Position numbers and translations under genes: made by a program. Positions 23,394 through 50,301 of a stretch of 64,000 bases of DNA are shown in pieces; position 1 is the stretch's first letter, and each line of letters begins with the position of its first letter. Origin of the DNA: Clostridiaceae bacterium (lineage in GTDB: Bacteria > Bacillota > Clostridia > DSM-8532). Location: assembly GCA_012719545.1 (NCBI GenBank), contig JAAYAD010000057.1, positions 1-64,000 of the forward strand, read 5' to 3'. A model generated the notes under the pieces. It did not search any database, was not told the DNA's origin, and saw only the letters and a program-made list of their open reading frames with translations.

Positions 23394-24386
23394 TCAATCA
23401 ACAAACACTTCAGGATAGAATGCTTTTGCCAGTGTTTCGACAGTGTATGCCATACGGTTGCCTGGAAGAACACTTTCCAGGGAAATAACGGCAAAACGTT
23501 CATTTTTAACGCATTCAAGCTGGGACAGGATATCATTTGCTTTAATTTCTGCAATCTTTTCTTCAACTGAGGGTGAATCATAATCATGTATGAGGATGAT
23601 ATCAGGATTACGGGCTATGACTTCCTCATAACTTACTGTAATCCATTGTTTCTGGGTTAAATCACTGAAAATGTTTTTTCCTCCGGATAAAGAAATCAAA
23701 AGTGATTCAAAATTAGAGCCTGAGCATGTAAATACTCCGTTGTTACCGCTGTCATATACAAGAACGGTAGGGGTCTTAAGCCAGTGAACCTTGTTCTGGA
23801 CAGCCTCAATACGTGCTTTTTGGTCATTAACGTAATCCTGTGCGGTATCTTCTATGCCAAAAATCCTGCCTATGTCCAAAATCTCCTGATACTGCTCCTC
23901 TAATGTGGTGGCAGAATTCATGTAGACTTTAATCCCGTAACTCTCAAGTTCACTGATATCAAGCCCGCCATCTCCAAACTCCCAATCAATGCCATATATA
24001 AAGTCGGCACCACTTGTGATGACTGCTTCACGGGTGGCAGAGCTATAGTTAAGTTGAGGCATGTTGACATACTGCTCTTCATATTCAGGAAGCGGGCCAC
24101 GGCTGTGATTAGCAAGGGAAGTACCAATGATATAGTCCCTAAGACCAAGTGCAACAAAGAGCTCGGTACAGTTGGGCCCAAGAGTGAGCACTTTTTGAGG
24201 TTTGGAATTTATGGTAACTGTTCTGCCGTAATTTTCAAAAGTCATGGGATAACCGTTGCTTACAGAGTTATTATTGTTACTGCTTGATTCAGACTTGACA
24301 GTATTTCCGCTGCAAGCAGCAAATAAAAGGATGTAAATAAGTATAAAAGTCAAAAGTAAGAAGTTTGTAAATCTTATTTTTCTCAT
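23394..24386 (-). CDS. ABC transporter substrate-binding lipoprotein (BtuF/FepB-type)
   Basis: Lipobox LLFAACSGN; periplasmic-binding family (VLTLGPNCTELFVALGLRDYIIGTS). Confidence 0.9.
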   Translation of the reverse strand: MRKIRFTNFLLLTFILIYILLFAACSGNTVKSESSSNNNNSVSNGYPMTFENYGRTVTINSKPQKVLTLGPNCTELFVALGLRDYIIGTSLANHSRGPLPEYEEQYVNMPQLNYSSATREAVITSGADFIYGIDWEFGDGGLDISELESYGIKVYMNSATTLEEQYQEILDIGRIFGIEDTAQDYVNDQKARIEAVQNKVHWLKTPTVLVYDSGNNGVFTCSGSNFESLLISLSGGKNIFSDLTQKQWITVSYEEVIARNPDIILIHDYDSPSVEEKIAEIKANDILSQLECVKNERFAVISLESVLPGNRMAYTVETLAKAFYPEVFVD

Positions 24387-24400
24387 TTTACCCTCCTGAA

Positions 24401-25201
24401 TTAAACAACTTCTTCTTTATCTTTTTCAAATCCTGCAGGAAGAAATGTTATAGCCATTTTGCCCGTTATTGGATGCTTTGTTACCGAGCTGTGAACTCCG
24501 TATACGTTATAAATGTTTTCTTCTGTGAACACTTCCTCAGGAGTTCCATGAAGCACGATTTTACCGTCCTTAAGAACATATATTTGATCACAATATAGGG
24601 AAGCCATGTTTAAATCATGGATTGCGGCAATCACAGTGACCTTTAGTCTTTTAATAAGATCAAATACCTGTATCTGATAGCCGATATCAAGATGATTAGT
24701 GGGTTCATCAAGCAGGAATAAATCGCTTTCCTGTGCTATTGCCCGGGCAATGATAACCCGCTGTTTCTCACCGCCCGAAAGATTTTGATAATTCCGTTTT
24801 GCCATTTTTTCCATGCCCACTTGTTCAAGAGCATGGTGGACCATATACCTGTCATGGGAGTTGTCAAAATCAAATAACTTTTTATGAGGACTTCTGCCCA
24901 TGGCGACAATTTCTTCAACAAGAAAGTTAAAAGGAACCTCATTTTCCTGCCCAACAACAGCCTGCTTAAGTGCAGATTTTTTATGCTTCATTTTTAAAAG
25001 ATCCTCGCCATCGAGAAGAATTGTTCCTTTGTCGGGTGTCAAAGCGCGGTATAGATTTTTAAGCAAGGTTGATTTGCCGCTTCCGTTGGGGCCAACAAGG
25101 CCAACAAATTCACCTTCTTTAATTTTGAGCGATACATTATCAATTGCATTATTTTCGTTGTATGAATAGGATAGTCCATTTATTTCTAAACGTACATTCA
25201 T
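24401..25201 (-). CDS. ABC transporter ATP-binding protein (BtuD/FecE-type)
   Basis: GPNGSGKSTLLKNL; LSGGEKQRVIIARAIAQ; LFLLDEPTNHLDI. Confidence 0.95.
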   Translation of the reverse strand: MNVRLEINGLSYSYNENNAIDNVSLKIKEGEFVGLVGPNGSGKSTLLKNLYRALTPDKGTILLDGEDLLKMKHKKSALKQAVVGQENEVPFNFLVEEIVAMGRSPHKKLFDFDNSHDRYMVHHALEQVGMEKMAKRNYQNLSGGEKQRVIIARAIAQESDLFLLDEPTNHLDIGYQIQVFDLIKRLKVTVIAAIHDLNMASLYCDQIYVLKDGKIVLHGTPEEVFTEENIYNVYGVHSSVTKHPITGKMAITFLPAGFEKDKEEVV

Positions 25202-25215
25202 GCATTGCCTCCAAA

Positions 25216-26295
25216 TTACTGTTTTCCTGTGGTGTTTCGCTTAAGAAGCCAGATGAATATTGGTCCGCCTATCACAGCGGTCAAAATACCAACCGGTAAT
25301 TCTTCTGGAGCTATAATCATTCTTGCTGCAACGTCTACCCAAACGACAAGTATACCTCCAAGCAGTGCAGACACAGGGAGGACCTTTTTGTGGTTGCTGC
25401 CTACGATAAGACGTGTAAAATGCGGCACCATCAATCCTACAAAACCTATTTTTCCGCTGACTGAAATGGTTACGCCGGCCATCAGGGATGCAATAAGCAC
25501 AAGAAGCTTCTGAAACCTGCGGACATTAATGCCAAGAGCTCCGGCACTTTCATCACCAAGAAGCAATAAGTTTAGATTACGATAATTTATCATAAGTACT
25601 GCCATACATATAGCTAAAACTATCAATGGCAATCTGAGATATGCCCATTTGGCTCCTGCAAGGCTTCCTGACATCCAAAATTCGGCATTATGTAGTCCCA
25701 AAGCATTTGGTGCAGAGAGCTTAACGATACTGGTGAGCCCGTCCATAATCATGGATATCACAACGCCGGAAAGCAGAAGCTGAGTCATGTTAATACGGCC
25801 TTTGATGCGGGATATCACATAAACAAAAACGATTGTTACAGCAGAGCCAATAAATGCGCTTAATGGAAGGGAGTATTGGCCAAGAAATGCAAAAACACCA
25901 AACAGCATGCCAAGAGTAGCAAATGCAGTAGCACCGGATGAAACCCCCAGAATAAAAGGATCTGCCAGATGATTGCGGACAAGAGCCTGCATGGTGACGC
26001 CGCAAACTGCTAGGGATGCTCCAACCACCATTCCAAGGAAAACGCGTGGAAGCCTTAAACCGAGGACAATATTCTCATCAAGCTGTTCCCACGTTACTGC
26101 AATATTGTTGCCAATACCAGGAACTTTGCTTAATAGTATCTTTGTAACTTTATCAGGTGCCACAGATACAGGACCTAAGCCAGTTGCAAGAAAAATAGTA
26201 GCAATGGCTGCAAGCAACAAAAAAAGTATTAGTAAAGCCATATTTGGATCTTCACGGTTAAAACTCTTTCTATGATTTATTCTTATAATTTTCAT
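25216..26295 (-). CDS. ABC transporter permease (FecCD/BtuC-type)
   Basis: LGLRLPRVFLGMVVGASLAVCGVTMQALVRNHLADPFILGVSSGA; GLMVPHFTRLIVG. Confidence 0.95.
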   Translation of the reverse strand: MKIIRINHRKSFNREDPNMALLILFLLLAAIATIFLATGLGPVSVAPDKVTKILLSKVPGIGNNIAVTWEQLDENIVLGLRLPRVFLGMVVGASLAVCGVTMQALVRNHLADPFILGVSSGATAFATLGMLFGVFAFLGQYSLPLSAFIGSAVTIVFVYVISRIKGRINMTQLLLSGVVISMIMDGLTSIVKLSAPNALGLHNAEFWMSGSLAGAKWAYLRLPLIVLAICMAVLMINYRNLNLLLLGDESAGALGINVRRFQKLLVLIASLMAGVTISVSGKIGFVGLMVPHFTRLIVGSNHKKVLPVSALLGGILVVWVDVAARMIIAPEELPVGILTAVIGGPIFIWLLKRNTTGKQ

Positions 26296-26382: not shown

Positions 26383-26434
26383 TAAAAAACTGATCAGCAT
26401 GTCCTGTCGACAGGCCGATCAGTCTTCATGACTG
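26383..26434 (-). promoter_or_regulatory. Candidate transcription attenuator in the leader of the minus-strand ABC operon
   Basis: Minus strand: ACTGATCGGCCTGTCGACAGGACATGCTGATCAGTTTTTT terminator (26383-26423) overlapped by a competing CAGTCATGAAGACTG hairpin (26420-26434); about 88 nt upstream of the permease start. Confidence 0.6.
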
Positions 26435-26684
26435 TTACACTCCAAGTTTACCAAACGTTCAAAATTTAACAATAAGCCCCAACTTCTGTTGGCATAAATG
26501 TTTCATACATTCCGTCACTTATGATACTATGTTTCTGGTTAAAAGGCAATAGCCGCCTTTCCTTAATCAAGTATAAAATACTCTTTTTTATTTAAAGTTA
26601 AACATATATACTTGGCTGATGCGATATTGACAAATCATATATTTTAGCTTATCTTGCCAGTATGGTAACTTAGGAGGCAAAAAA

Positions 26685-27977
26685 ATGAAAGTTCTATATA
26701 TAGACTGCGGTATGGGAGCCGCAGGAGATATGCTTACATCAGCCCTTTTAGAGCTGTTGCCCAATCCTGATGAATTTATATTTGAGCTTAACCAGCTAGG
26801 AATTCCAGGTGTACAGTTTATCAAAAACACAGTTGTAAGTTGCGGAATTAAAGGTACACAAATATCTGTTAAGGTAAATGGGGAAGAAGAAAACCTTTGC
26901 CAACATCACCATGACAGAGGACCTCATGAAGTGAATGAACATAAGCATGGCCATGGGCATGGACATGGATATGGTCATGAACATGAACATAATCATAATC
27001 ATGGGCATAATCATGTACATACAAATGCATATGAGCATCATCATAACGGGATGCATGAAATCCAGCACATTGTATCTGCTCTTCCGGTTGATAAAAAGGT
27101 TAAAGAGGACGTACTGGCTGTATATAACATAATTGCCGCAGCAGAGAGTAAAGTCCACGGTGTGCCTGTATCTGAAATACATTTCCACGAAGTAGGTACT
27201 TTGGATGCCATTGCCGATATAACGGCTGTGTGCATGCTTGTTAACAGGCTTTCACCCGATGAAATTGTTGTTTCGCCTGTTCATGTGGGGTCGGGCCTGG
27301 TAAAATGCGCTCATGGCATTCTTCCTGTTCCTGCGCCTGCAACAGCGTATATTTTAAAAGATGTACCAATTTATGGGGGAAGCATAAAGGGCGAGCTATG
27401 TACTCCAACAGGCGCTGCACTTTTGAAACATTATGCAACACGCTTTGGCGACATGCCTGTTATGAGGACAACTGCCATTGGCTACGGTATTGGAAAGAAG
27501 GATTTTGGCACAGCTAACTGTCTAAGGGTTATGCTTGGCGAAACTGAGAATAAAACTGATACTGTATCAGAGCTTTCATGCAATGTTGATGACATGACCG
27601 CAGAGGAAATTGGCTTTGCAATAGACAGACTTTTTGAAGGCGGTGCCCTTGAAGTATATACAGTTCCTGCCGGTATGAAAAAGAACCGACCAGGAACACT
27701 TGTAAACGTACTTTGTACTGATGAAAATAAAGAAAAAATTATCTCTCTTTTATTTAAACATACAACTACCATTGGGGTACGTGAATCTATTATGCGCCGA
27801 TATGTACTTAACCGCCGCTTTGAAACCATTTCCACTCCATATGGTGAAGTACGCCGTAAAACTTCGGAAGGGTATGGCACTACCCGCTTTAAATATGAGT
27901 ATGACGATATAGCACGGATTGCCAGGGAAAAGAACATAAGCTTAACAGAAGCACGCAAACTGATTGAGGGCTGTTAA
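26685..27977 (+). CDS. larC: Nickel pincer cofactor biosynthesis protein LarC
   Basis: MKVLYIDCGMGAAGDMLTSALLEL; internal His-rich HGHGHGHGYGHEHEHNHNHGHNHVH; HFHEVGTLDAIADI. Confidence 0.93.
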   Translation: MKVLYIDCGMGAAGDMLTSALLELLPNPDEFIFELNQLGIPGVQFIKNTVVSCGIKGTQISVKVNGEEENLCQHHHDRGPHEVNEHKHGHGHGHGYGHEHEHNHNHGHNHVHTNAYEHHHNGMHEIQHIVSALPVDKKVKEDVLAVYNIIAAAESKVHGVPVSEIHFHEVGTLDAIADITAVCMLVNRLSPDEIVVSPVHVGSGLVKCAHGILPVPAPATAYILKDVPIYGGSIKGELCTPTGAALLKHYATRFGDMPVMRTTAIGYGIGKKDFGTANCLRVMLGETENKTDTVSELSCNVDDMTAEEIGFAIDRLFEGGALEVYTVPAGMKKNRPGTLVNVLCTDENKEKIISLLFKHTTTIGVRESIMRRYVLNRRFETISTPYGEVRRKTSEGYGTTRFKYEYDDIARIAREKNISLTEARKLIEGC

Positions 27978-49080: not shown

Positions 49081-50301
49081 ATGTCTTCTTTGCTGATTAT
49101 AATTATTTATCTAGCGTTTATCAGCCTGGGCTTACCAGATTCTCTTTTAGGAACAGCCTGGCCGTTGATGAGAATAGACTTCAATTCGCCCATGGAGGCC
49201 GCTGGCCTTGTTTCAATGATGATTTCCGGCTGCACAATTATATCGACATTTTCAACGGGATACATATTAAAGTGGCTGGATACAGGAAAATTGGTGCTTA
49301 TAAGCTGCATTATGACTGCAAGCGCATTATTGGGATTTTCAATGGCACCTTCAATAATATGGCTTTTTATTTTGGCCATACCCCTTGGCCTTGGCGCTGG
49401 TGCCGTAGATGCGTCATTAAACAGCTATGTGGCTTATCATTATAAATCTTATCATATGAATTGGCTTCATTGCTTCTGGGGCGTTGGAGCCTCCCTTGGA
49501 CCACTTATTTTATCATACTTTATGAGGGTTCAAAACTCCTGGAGAAATGGTTATTTAACAGTTTCAGGAATCCAGTTTGCTCTTGTGGCTTTATTCCTGG
49601 TATCACTTCCTTTATGGAAGCGTAATTCCGCCAATAAAGAAGAAGTGCAGGCACAAATTGAAGGGGAAAGTGCTGCTACACTTGAGGATTCAGATGTTAA
49701 GACCAATGTGAACCCTATAAAAATAAAGGGTGTTATATTTGCTATTTTGACCTTCCTGTTCTATGTAAGCGGCGAGGTTTCAATGGGTCTCTGGGGCAGC
49801 AGTTTCCTTGTAAATATTAAGGGAATAGCAGCATCTACAGCCGCTCAATGGATATCCTTATACTATTCGGGAATTACCATTGGCCGTTTAATAAGCGGGT
49901 TCATCTCAATAAAGGTAAGTAACCCTGCAATAATAAGACTGGGCATATTTATTTCTCTTACAGGCATTATTCTTATAATTTTACCATTGCCTTCAGTGTT
50001 TACGCTACTGGGATGTATGCTTTTGGGATTGGGCTTTGCGCCGATATTTCCCAGCATGATTCATCAAACTCCCATTAATTTTGGAAAAGAGCATGCCCAG
50101 AAGATTATTGGATGGCAAATGTCATTTTCTTACATGGGAAATACTTTTTTAACGCCGCTTTTAGGCGCTGTGGCAGCAAGAACTACTATTGGAATATTGC
50201 CATACTGCATTCTGGGATATATTTTAATGGTGTTCTTATGTACTGAACGGATAAATTTCATTGCAAGAAGCAAAGAAAGCTTAAAGACTTCAGAACAATA
50301 A
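49081..50301 (+). CDS. MFS transporter
   Basis: 12-TM-like pattern; FISLGLPDSLLGTAWPLMR; PLGLGAGAVDASLNSYVA. Confidence 0.9.
   Translation: MSSLLIIIIYLAFISLGLPDSLLGTAWPLMRIDFNSPMEAAGLVSMMISGCTIISTFSTGYILKWLDTGKLVLISCIMTASALLGFSMAPSIIWLFILAIPLGLGAGAVDASLNSYVAYHYKSYHMNWLHCFWGVGASLGPLILSYFMRVQNSWRNGYLTVSGIQFALVALFLVSLPLWKRNSANKEEVQAQIEGESAATLEDSDVKTNVNPIKIKGVIFAILTFLFYVSGEVSMGLWGSSFLVNIKGIAASTAAQWISLYYSGITIGRLISGFISIKVSNPAIIRLGIFISLTGIILIILPLPSVFTLLGCMLLGLGFAPIFPSMIHQTPINFGKEHAQKIIGWQMSFSYMGNTFLTPLLGAVAARTTIGILPYCILGYILMVFLCTERINFIARSKESLKTSEQ

Follow-up and report, generated by a model that had tools for sequence, protein, structure and literature searches.

What decides whether transcription reads into the FecCD-type importer operon that lies divergent from larC in this Clostridiaceae genome? 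The window, a stretch of 64,000 nucleotides from one contig, carries a minus-strand leader between the two, in which a sequence-only reading had claimed a strong terminator before the permease start and a competing hairpin, CAGTC-ATGAA-GACTG. Both elements are real and far above chance. The terminator region (26440-26380) folds with -25.5 kcal/mol, compared with -12.0 kcal/mol (sd 2.6) for shuffled sequences (z -5.1; 0 of 200 shuffles as stable), and the 3' arm of the competing hairpin overlaps the 5' arm of the terminator as claimed. A simple consensus scan for terminators did not list this one, probably owing to the break in its stem and to an apical part that exceeds the length permitted by the scan. 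Together with P3, the competing hairpin, the terminator makes up the 3' half of a conserved leader, whose conserved signature, formed by the hairpins P1 and P2, was missing from the sequence-only reading. The leader runs from the promoter through P1 (AUGAA loop), P2 (AGAA loop) and a spacer to P3 (AUGAA loop), which is mutually exclusive with the terminator (Table 1).

Where does the leader RNA begin? The promoter-like site upstream of P1 is likely to be the importer promoter. Given its position, the leader probably starts near 26514 and spans ~130 nt up to and including the terminator, and positions 26515-26684 would lie outside the transcript of this predicted promoter. Across 22 leaders, the best promoter-like site scores a mean of 9.8 out of 12, compared with 6.7 in shuffles, and with a single exception, 5-16 nt separate the end of its -10 element from P1. 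Because the -10 element adjoins P1 across leaders, we place the RNA start at P1. The sequence-only reading had left room for an upstream aptamer or leader of roughly 200 nt that reaches larC. This expectation does not agree with an RNA that appears to start at P1, nor with a leader built from small hairpins whose loops are conserved and whose stems vary freely. The fold of the 302-nt region contains a long-range helix (26678-26663 with 26453-26440), which would not form in the RNA from the predicted promoter. It was rejected as the P1 of an aptamer because one of its strands lies beyond the conserved promoter and because it is absent from the shared anatomy.

The genes on either side were assigned from curated models. 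The permease scores 241.9 and 222.5 bits in the BtuC models, below their cut-offs of 461 and 334, and also falls under the cut-off of the F420-0 permease model, so that only the general FecCD family is recognized; by these scores the importer is not assigned to the BtuFCD (vitamin B12) systems. LarC, which mediates nickel insertion for the nickel-pincer cofactor, is well above its cut-offs (TIGR00299, 214.8 versus 90 bits; NF052512, 144.7 versus 50 bits). Its promoter, TTGACA-17-TATCTT, is close by (26627-26684, plus strand) and its 5' UTR is short; for these reasons, the window larC has no leader copy, unlike the divergent larC of one relative (G010/L003). A putative cyclase/arylformamidase-like gene (PF04199; 27986-28630, plus strand) directly follows larC.

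Table 1. Elements of the importer leader and neighboring genes in the window
Feature	Coordinates	Strand	Basis or remark
Hairpin P1, AAUGU-AUGAA-ACAUU (ANGAA loop)	26497..26511	-	First half of the module R1 match
Hairpin P2, CCAAC-AGAA-GUUGG (NGAA loop)	26479..26492	-	Loop enrichment and covariation
Hairpin P3, CAGUC-AUGAA-GACUG, antiterminator	26420..26434	-	Forms before the terminator 3' arm is present
Intrinsic terminator, U tract included	26384..26426	-	5' arm overlaps the 3' arm of P3
Likely importer operon promoter, TTGCCT-17-TATCAT	26521..26549	-	Consensus scan and position next to P1
FecCD-type ABC permease, first gene after the leader	25216..26295	-	PF01032, 316.7 bits
ABC transporter ATP-binding subunit	24401..25201	-	PF00005
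Periplasmic substrate-binding lipoprotein	23394..24386	-	PF01497
larC, divergent from the importer	26685..27977	+	TIGR00299, NF052512, PF01969 (463.7 bits)

Is this leader shared with other genomes? When relatives were searched at the DNA level, only G010 showed real homology, and a structure-based search was therefore needed. We read the regions upstream of permease relatives and tested all hairpin loops of 4-7 nt against dinucleotide shuffles. In this test, which scores exact loop identity and is independent of the covariation alignment, AGAA was found in 12 leaders compared with 0.2 expected, AUGAA in 11 compared with 0.15, ACGAA in 7 compared with 0.1 and AGGAA in 6 compared with 0. The module consists of an ANGAA-loop hairpin, a short linker and an NGAA-loop hairpin. 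Its covariance model R1, whose seed includes the window sequence itself, matches the window at 26512-26478 as the sole site in its own genome (E 2.5e-5, with such E-values being rough and the seeds containing some sequences that were later counted). The module model also matched leaders in other families. Two-sided changes occur in 10 of 10 pairs; this figure is indicative only, since some of the seed sequences had been selected with pairing as a requirement and the alignment contains four rows that are false hits. Outside the loops, very little sequence is conserved, and the spacing of the modules is widely variable. Other R1/R2 matches (L091-L094, L098, L100-L110, L112-L114 and window position 50260) were judged false, as they lie in coding DNA or have no leader context.

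How would the leader switch? In silico, the RNA forms P1, P2 and P3 when it is cut at 26413, and addition of the 3' arm swaps P3 for the terminator. The leaders contain a second module, P3 and often also P4, that shares sequence with the terminator, and it does so in more than one way. In some leaders, including that of the ECF S component in the window's own genome, where AUGCCACGAA pairs with UUCGUGGCAU, it is the 5' arm of P3 with its loop that the terminator takes up; in others, including those of the window and L184, it is the 3' arm. Since different routes give the same exclusivity, we argue that the choice between P3 and the terminator is the selected switch. Upstream of ECF S components, a P3 hairpin with a T tract is present in 23 of 44 leaders, compared with 0.36 expected. 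A terminator and a mutually exclusive antiterminator, the hallmark of an attenuator, thus lie between the promoter and the first gene, and both are conserved in relatives; on the conservation of the terminator, the sequence-only reading had made its proposal depend. P3 formation would represent the ON state.

Spirochaete leaders present a different arrangement. Those of Treponema and other spirochaetes (L037, L040 and L042) contain several ANGAA hairpins and no obvious terminator. Their last hairpin, GGAG-AUGAA-CUCC, competes with a pairing that reaches the ribosome-binding/start region in three of the five spirochaete leaders, and the same fold of L038 and L047 revealed no such competition near the ribosome-binding region. 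For some spirochaetes, this suggests that a similar hairpin may exert its effect at the ribosome site.

Does the leader belong to a known RNA class? At the gathering threshold, Rfam 15 identified one tRNA in the window alone; in the window together with the leader-bearing loci, its matches were limited to tRNA, tmRNA and an FMN element unrelated to the leader. Relaxed thresholds yielded nothing credible, either in the leader region of the window or in the leader-bearing loci. Cobalamin, NiCo, Moco and other Rfam riboswitches were rejected because the gathering score was not reached. The sequence-only reading had found no match by eye to the B12, NiCo or Moco consensus. NiCo (czcD) and cobalamin riboswitches also control metal or corrinoid transport genes in Clostridia, but they are large junction or multi-helix aptamers, and the leader has no comparable fold. 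ANTAR targets contain two small hairpins, one over the terminator, whose formation leads to antitermination, and their hexaloops conserve A1 and G4 (PMC8934654). The leader resembles such EutV-type targets in that it has two small hairpins, with loops that are conserved and stems that are not, and in that a hairpin overlaps an intrinsic terminator. However, it displays ANGAA pentaloops and NGAA tetraloops, and no ANTAR-like 6-nt loop was enriched in the loop test. An ANTAR-responsive leader was thus rejected on loop size and code; the single ANTAR-domain protein of the genome has no known link to the leader. The guanidine-II (mini-ykkC) riboswitch likewise relies on small hairpins in tandem whose loops follow a conserved code, but its loop is ACGR, it controls guanidine genes and it is an Rfam family that the leader does not match. 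LarR of Lactobacillus plantarum regulates the lar operon and nickel transport genes, a similar set of targets, but as a DNA-binding regulator, whereas control by the leader would operate at the RNA level. RNA control of lar genes or of NPN (nickel-pincer cofactor) import was not found in the literature searched, which mostly left out subscription papers. Relative to that literature, the leader is best read as an RNA class without an earlier description.

The genes downstream of the leader point to a common subject. In addition to FecCD-type ABC importers, which are followed further downstream by larE, larB and larC in the same direction at L024, L052 and L057, the leader precedes larB (L013), larE-larB-larC-permease (L050), a NikA-like binding protein (L096; below the curated cut-off) and a two-gene membrane unit, with larE-larB-larC behind it at L232 and relatives at L233 and L111. 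In G010/L003, copies stand before both divergent genes, and larC has its own. The commonest target is a PF12822 ECF S component, and the window's genome harbors two copies, one at the importer and one at an ECF S component on contig C87 (R3 match at 8.9e-8, with this sequence belonging to the R3 seed). The membrane unit genes (MACFLVP... and MTLLTTV..., at 675-1000 and 216-672 past the L232 leader) have no Pfam or NCBIfam match at any of the three loci and sit between the leader and larE-larB-larC; the unit is a candidate nickel or NPN transporter. An ordinary terminator or chance hairpin with no regulatory role is a highly improbable explanation of these observations. Intrinsic terminators are common and the support here is drawn from sequence alone, but the enriched loops, the covariation, the position of the promoter, the exclusivity of P3 and the repeated occurrence ahead of functionally linked genes all speak against it.

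Importer relatives that lack the leader have a C/G-tract motif (such as ATCCCCCCGGGGGGCTTGTG) over the probable -35 box, just upstream of the permease (L009, L010, L016, L017, L027, L029, L031, L034, L035, L039, L043-L046, L049, L053, L054 and L060-L062). The motif resembles the operator of a metal-responsive CsoR/RcnR-type repressor, and, judged by these upstream regions, the RNA leader and the operator look mutually exclusive among the importer relatives.

What does the regulon supply? Among 391 genomes of the window's class, the ECF S component is anti-correlated with LarC (OR 0.37, p 3.7e-6). LarA is encoded by 39 of 93 genomes tested. LarC or the S component accompanies it in 37 of these 39, and in 18 the S component is present and LarC absent; the two exceptions are genomes that are 73% and 79% complete. 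In G083, the S-component gene is immediately followed by larA in the same orientation. The S component tends to replace LarC and to accompany LarA, and the simplest reading is therefore that it imports NPN or a precursor. Its substrate is nonetheless uncertain because many S-component genomes lack LarA (the S component occurs in 22 of 54 LarA-negative genomes). A PDB sequence search with the ECF S component returned no match. The window's genome encodes LarA homologues, LarC and the ECF S component on contigs C13, C87 and C102. Its sole PF00731 match is PurE-like, whereas LarB from L013 scores 63 bits in PF00731; thus, the genome may lack LarB and may depend on an imported precursor. As for the proposal of a regulated leader that senses the imported metal or cofactor, the attenuator is supported by conserved architecture, covariation, promoter position and lar targets, and the sensing part is read from the regulon.

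Which factor could act on the leader? Of the 391 genomes, 135 encode DUF3842 (PF12953), and 133 of these 135 also encode LarC or the S component. In 46 of 84 genomes compared, no more than 6 kb separates the DUF3842 gene from that of the S component. By a strict rule (R3 at 20 bits or more upstream of the S component), all 35 leader-positive genomes encode DUF3842, and none of 50 DUF3842-negative genomes has the leader. An independent pattern rule, with 0.2% positives in shuffles, detects the leader in 42 of 61 DUF3842-positive and 2 of 48 DUF3842-negative genomes (p 5.8e-13). Counted by family, the strict rule yields 14/0 versus 14/16 (p 5e-4), which is weaker than the per-genome result, and the association may partly reflect common descent; within several families of mixed status, leader presence follows DUF3842. 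Some DUF3842-positive genomes are leader-negative, many of which show variant leaders by eye (a post hoc impression that was not counted). The apparent leader in the DUF3842-negative genome G303 calls for caution on the role of this protein. The AlphaFold model of DUF3842 is a confident Rossmann-like domain (pLDDT 87) with no recognizable RNA-binding domain, and a fold search yielded weak matches to generic nucleotide- or flavin-binding folds only. The model suggests that DUF3842 is probably a small Rossmann-like, nucleotide-binding protein, which could be a sensor, an RNA-binding protein, both or a co-retained NPN-dependent protein. No study of DUF3842 and none of NPN import was found in the literature searched, with subscription papers mostly outside it. 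If DUF3842 is only an NPN-dependent protein retained by the same genomes, another RNA-binding antiterminator would bind the leader. Such an arrangement would suit the near confinement of DUF3842 to LarC/ECF-S genomes, as for an NPN-dependent enzyme, and its Rossmann-like fold, but we consider it improbable given that the leader tracks DUF3842 closely among ECF-S genomes, also inside mixed-status families.

Could the RNA itself be the sensor? The tandem hairpins might bind NPN, a precursor or Ni2+ directly, as in guanidine-II, and shift the balance between P3 and the terminator, with DUF3842 as a co-regulated enzyme or carrier. The conserved loops, tandem modules and cofactor-type regulon are compatible with such a riboswitch, as are the absence of an apparent RNA-binding domain in DUF3842 and the G303 leader. 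We nevertheless regard it as rather unlikely: hardly any sequence is conserved beyond the loops, module spacing varies widely and leader presence follows a protein family. Moreover, feedback would be expected to have the ligand promote termination, yet loop binding should favor P3.

We instead propose, at slightly better than an even chance, an antitermination leader of a nickel-pincer supply regulon, in which P3 is the ON state and DUF3842, or a factor acting with it, is the likeliest partner. Transcription would start at P1, and a trans-acting partner would recognize the ANGAA and NGAA hairpin loops. By holding P3, the partner would keep a P3 arm or loop from the terminator and allow the polymerase to read into the importer; without the partner, the terminator would form and expression would be OFF. 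DUF3842 could report cofactor status. The computed support, all from comparative analysis, consists of the hairpins, their conservation and covariation, the promoter position, the P3/terminator exclusivity, the targets and the DUF3842 association; from these we infer P3 as ON, NPN or nickel as the signal and DUF3842 as the partner. A more specific and still doubtful version holds that the DUF3842 proteins form a new family of RNA-binding antiterminators, which sense NPN or a precursor in their Rossmann-like nucleotide pocket, read C-ANGAA-G and C-NGAA-G in nascent leaders and control both NPN synthesis and an ECF salvage route for NPN not recognized before.

If the proposal is true, the leader would represent a regulatory RNA class for the nickel-pincer cofactor that is new relative to the literature searched. 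It would also provide directly testable hypotheses: a function for DUF3842 across the 135 of 391 sampled class genomes that encode it, a substrate for an ECF S component that is widespread but orphan, and the salvage of NPN by LarA-containing bacteria that do not make it.
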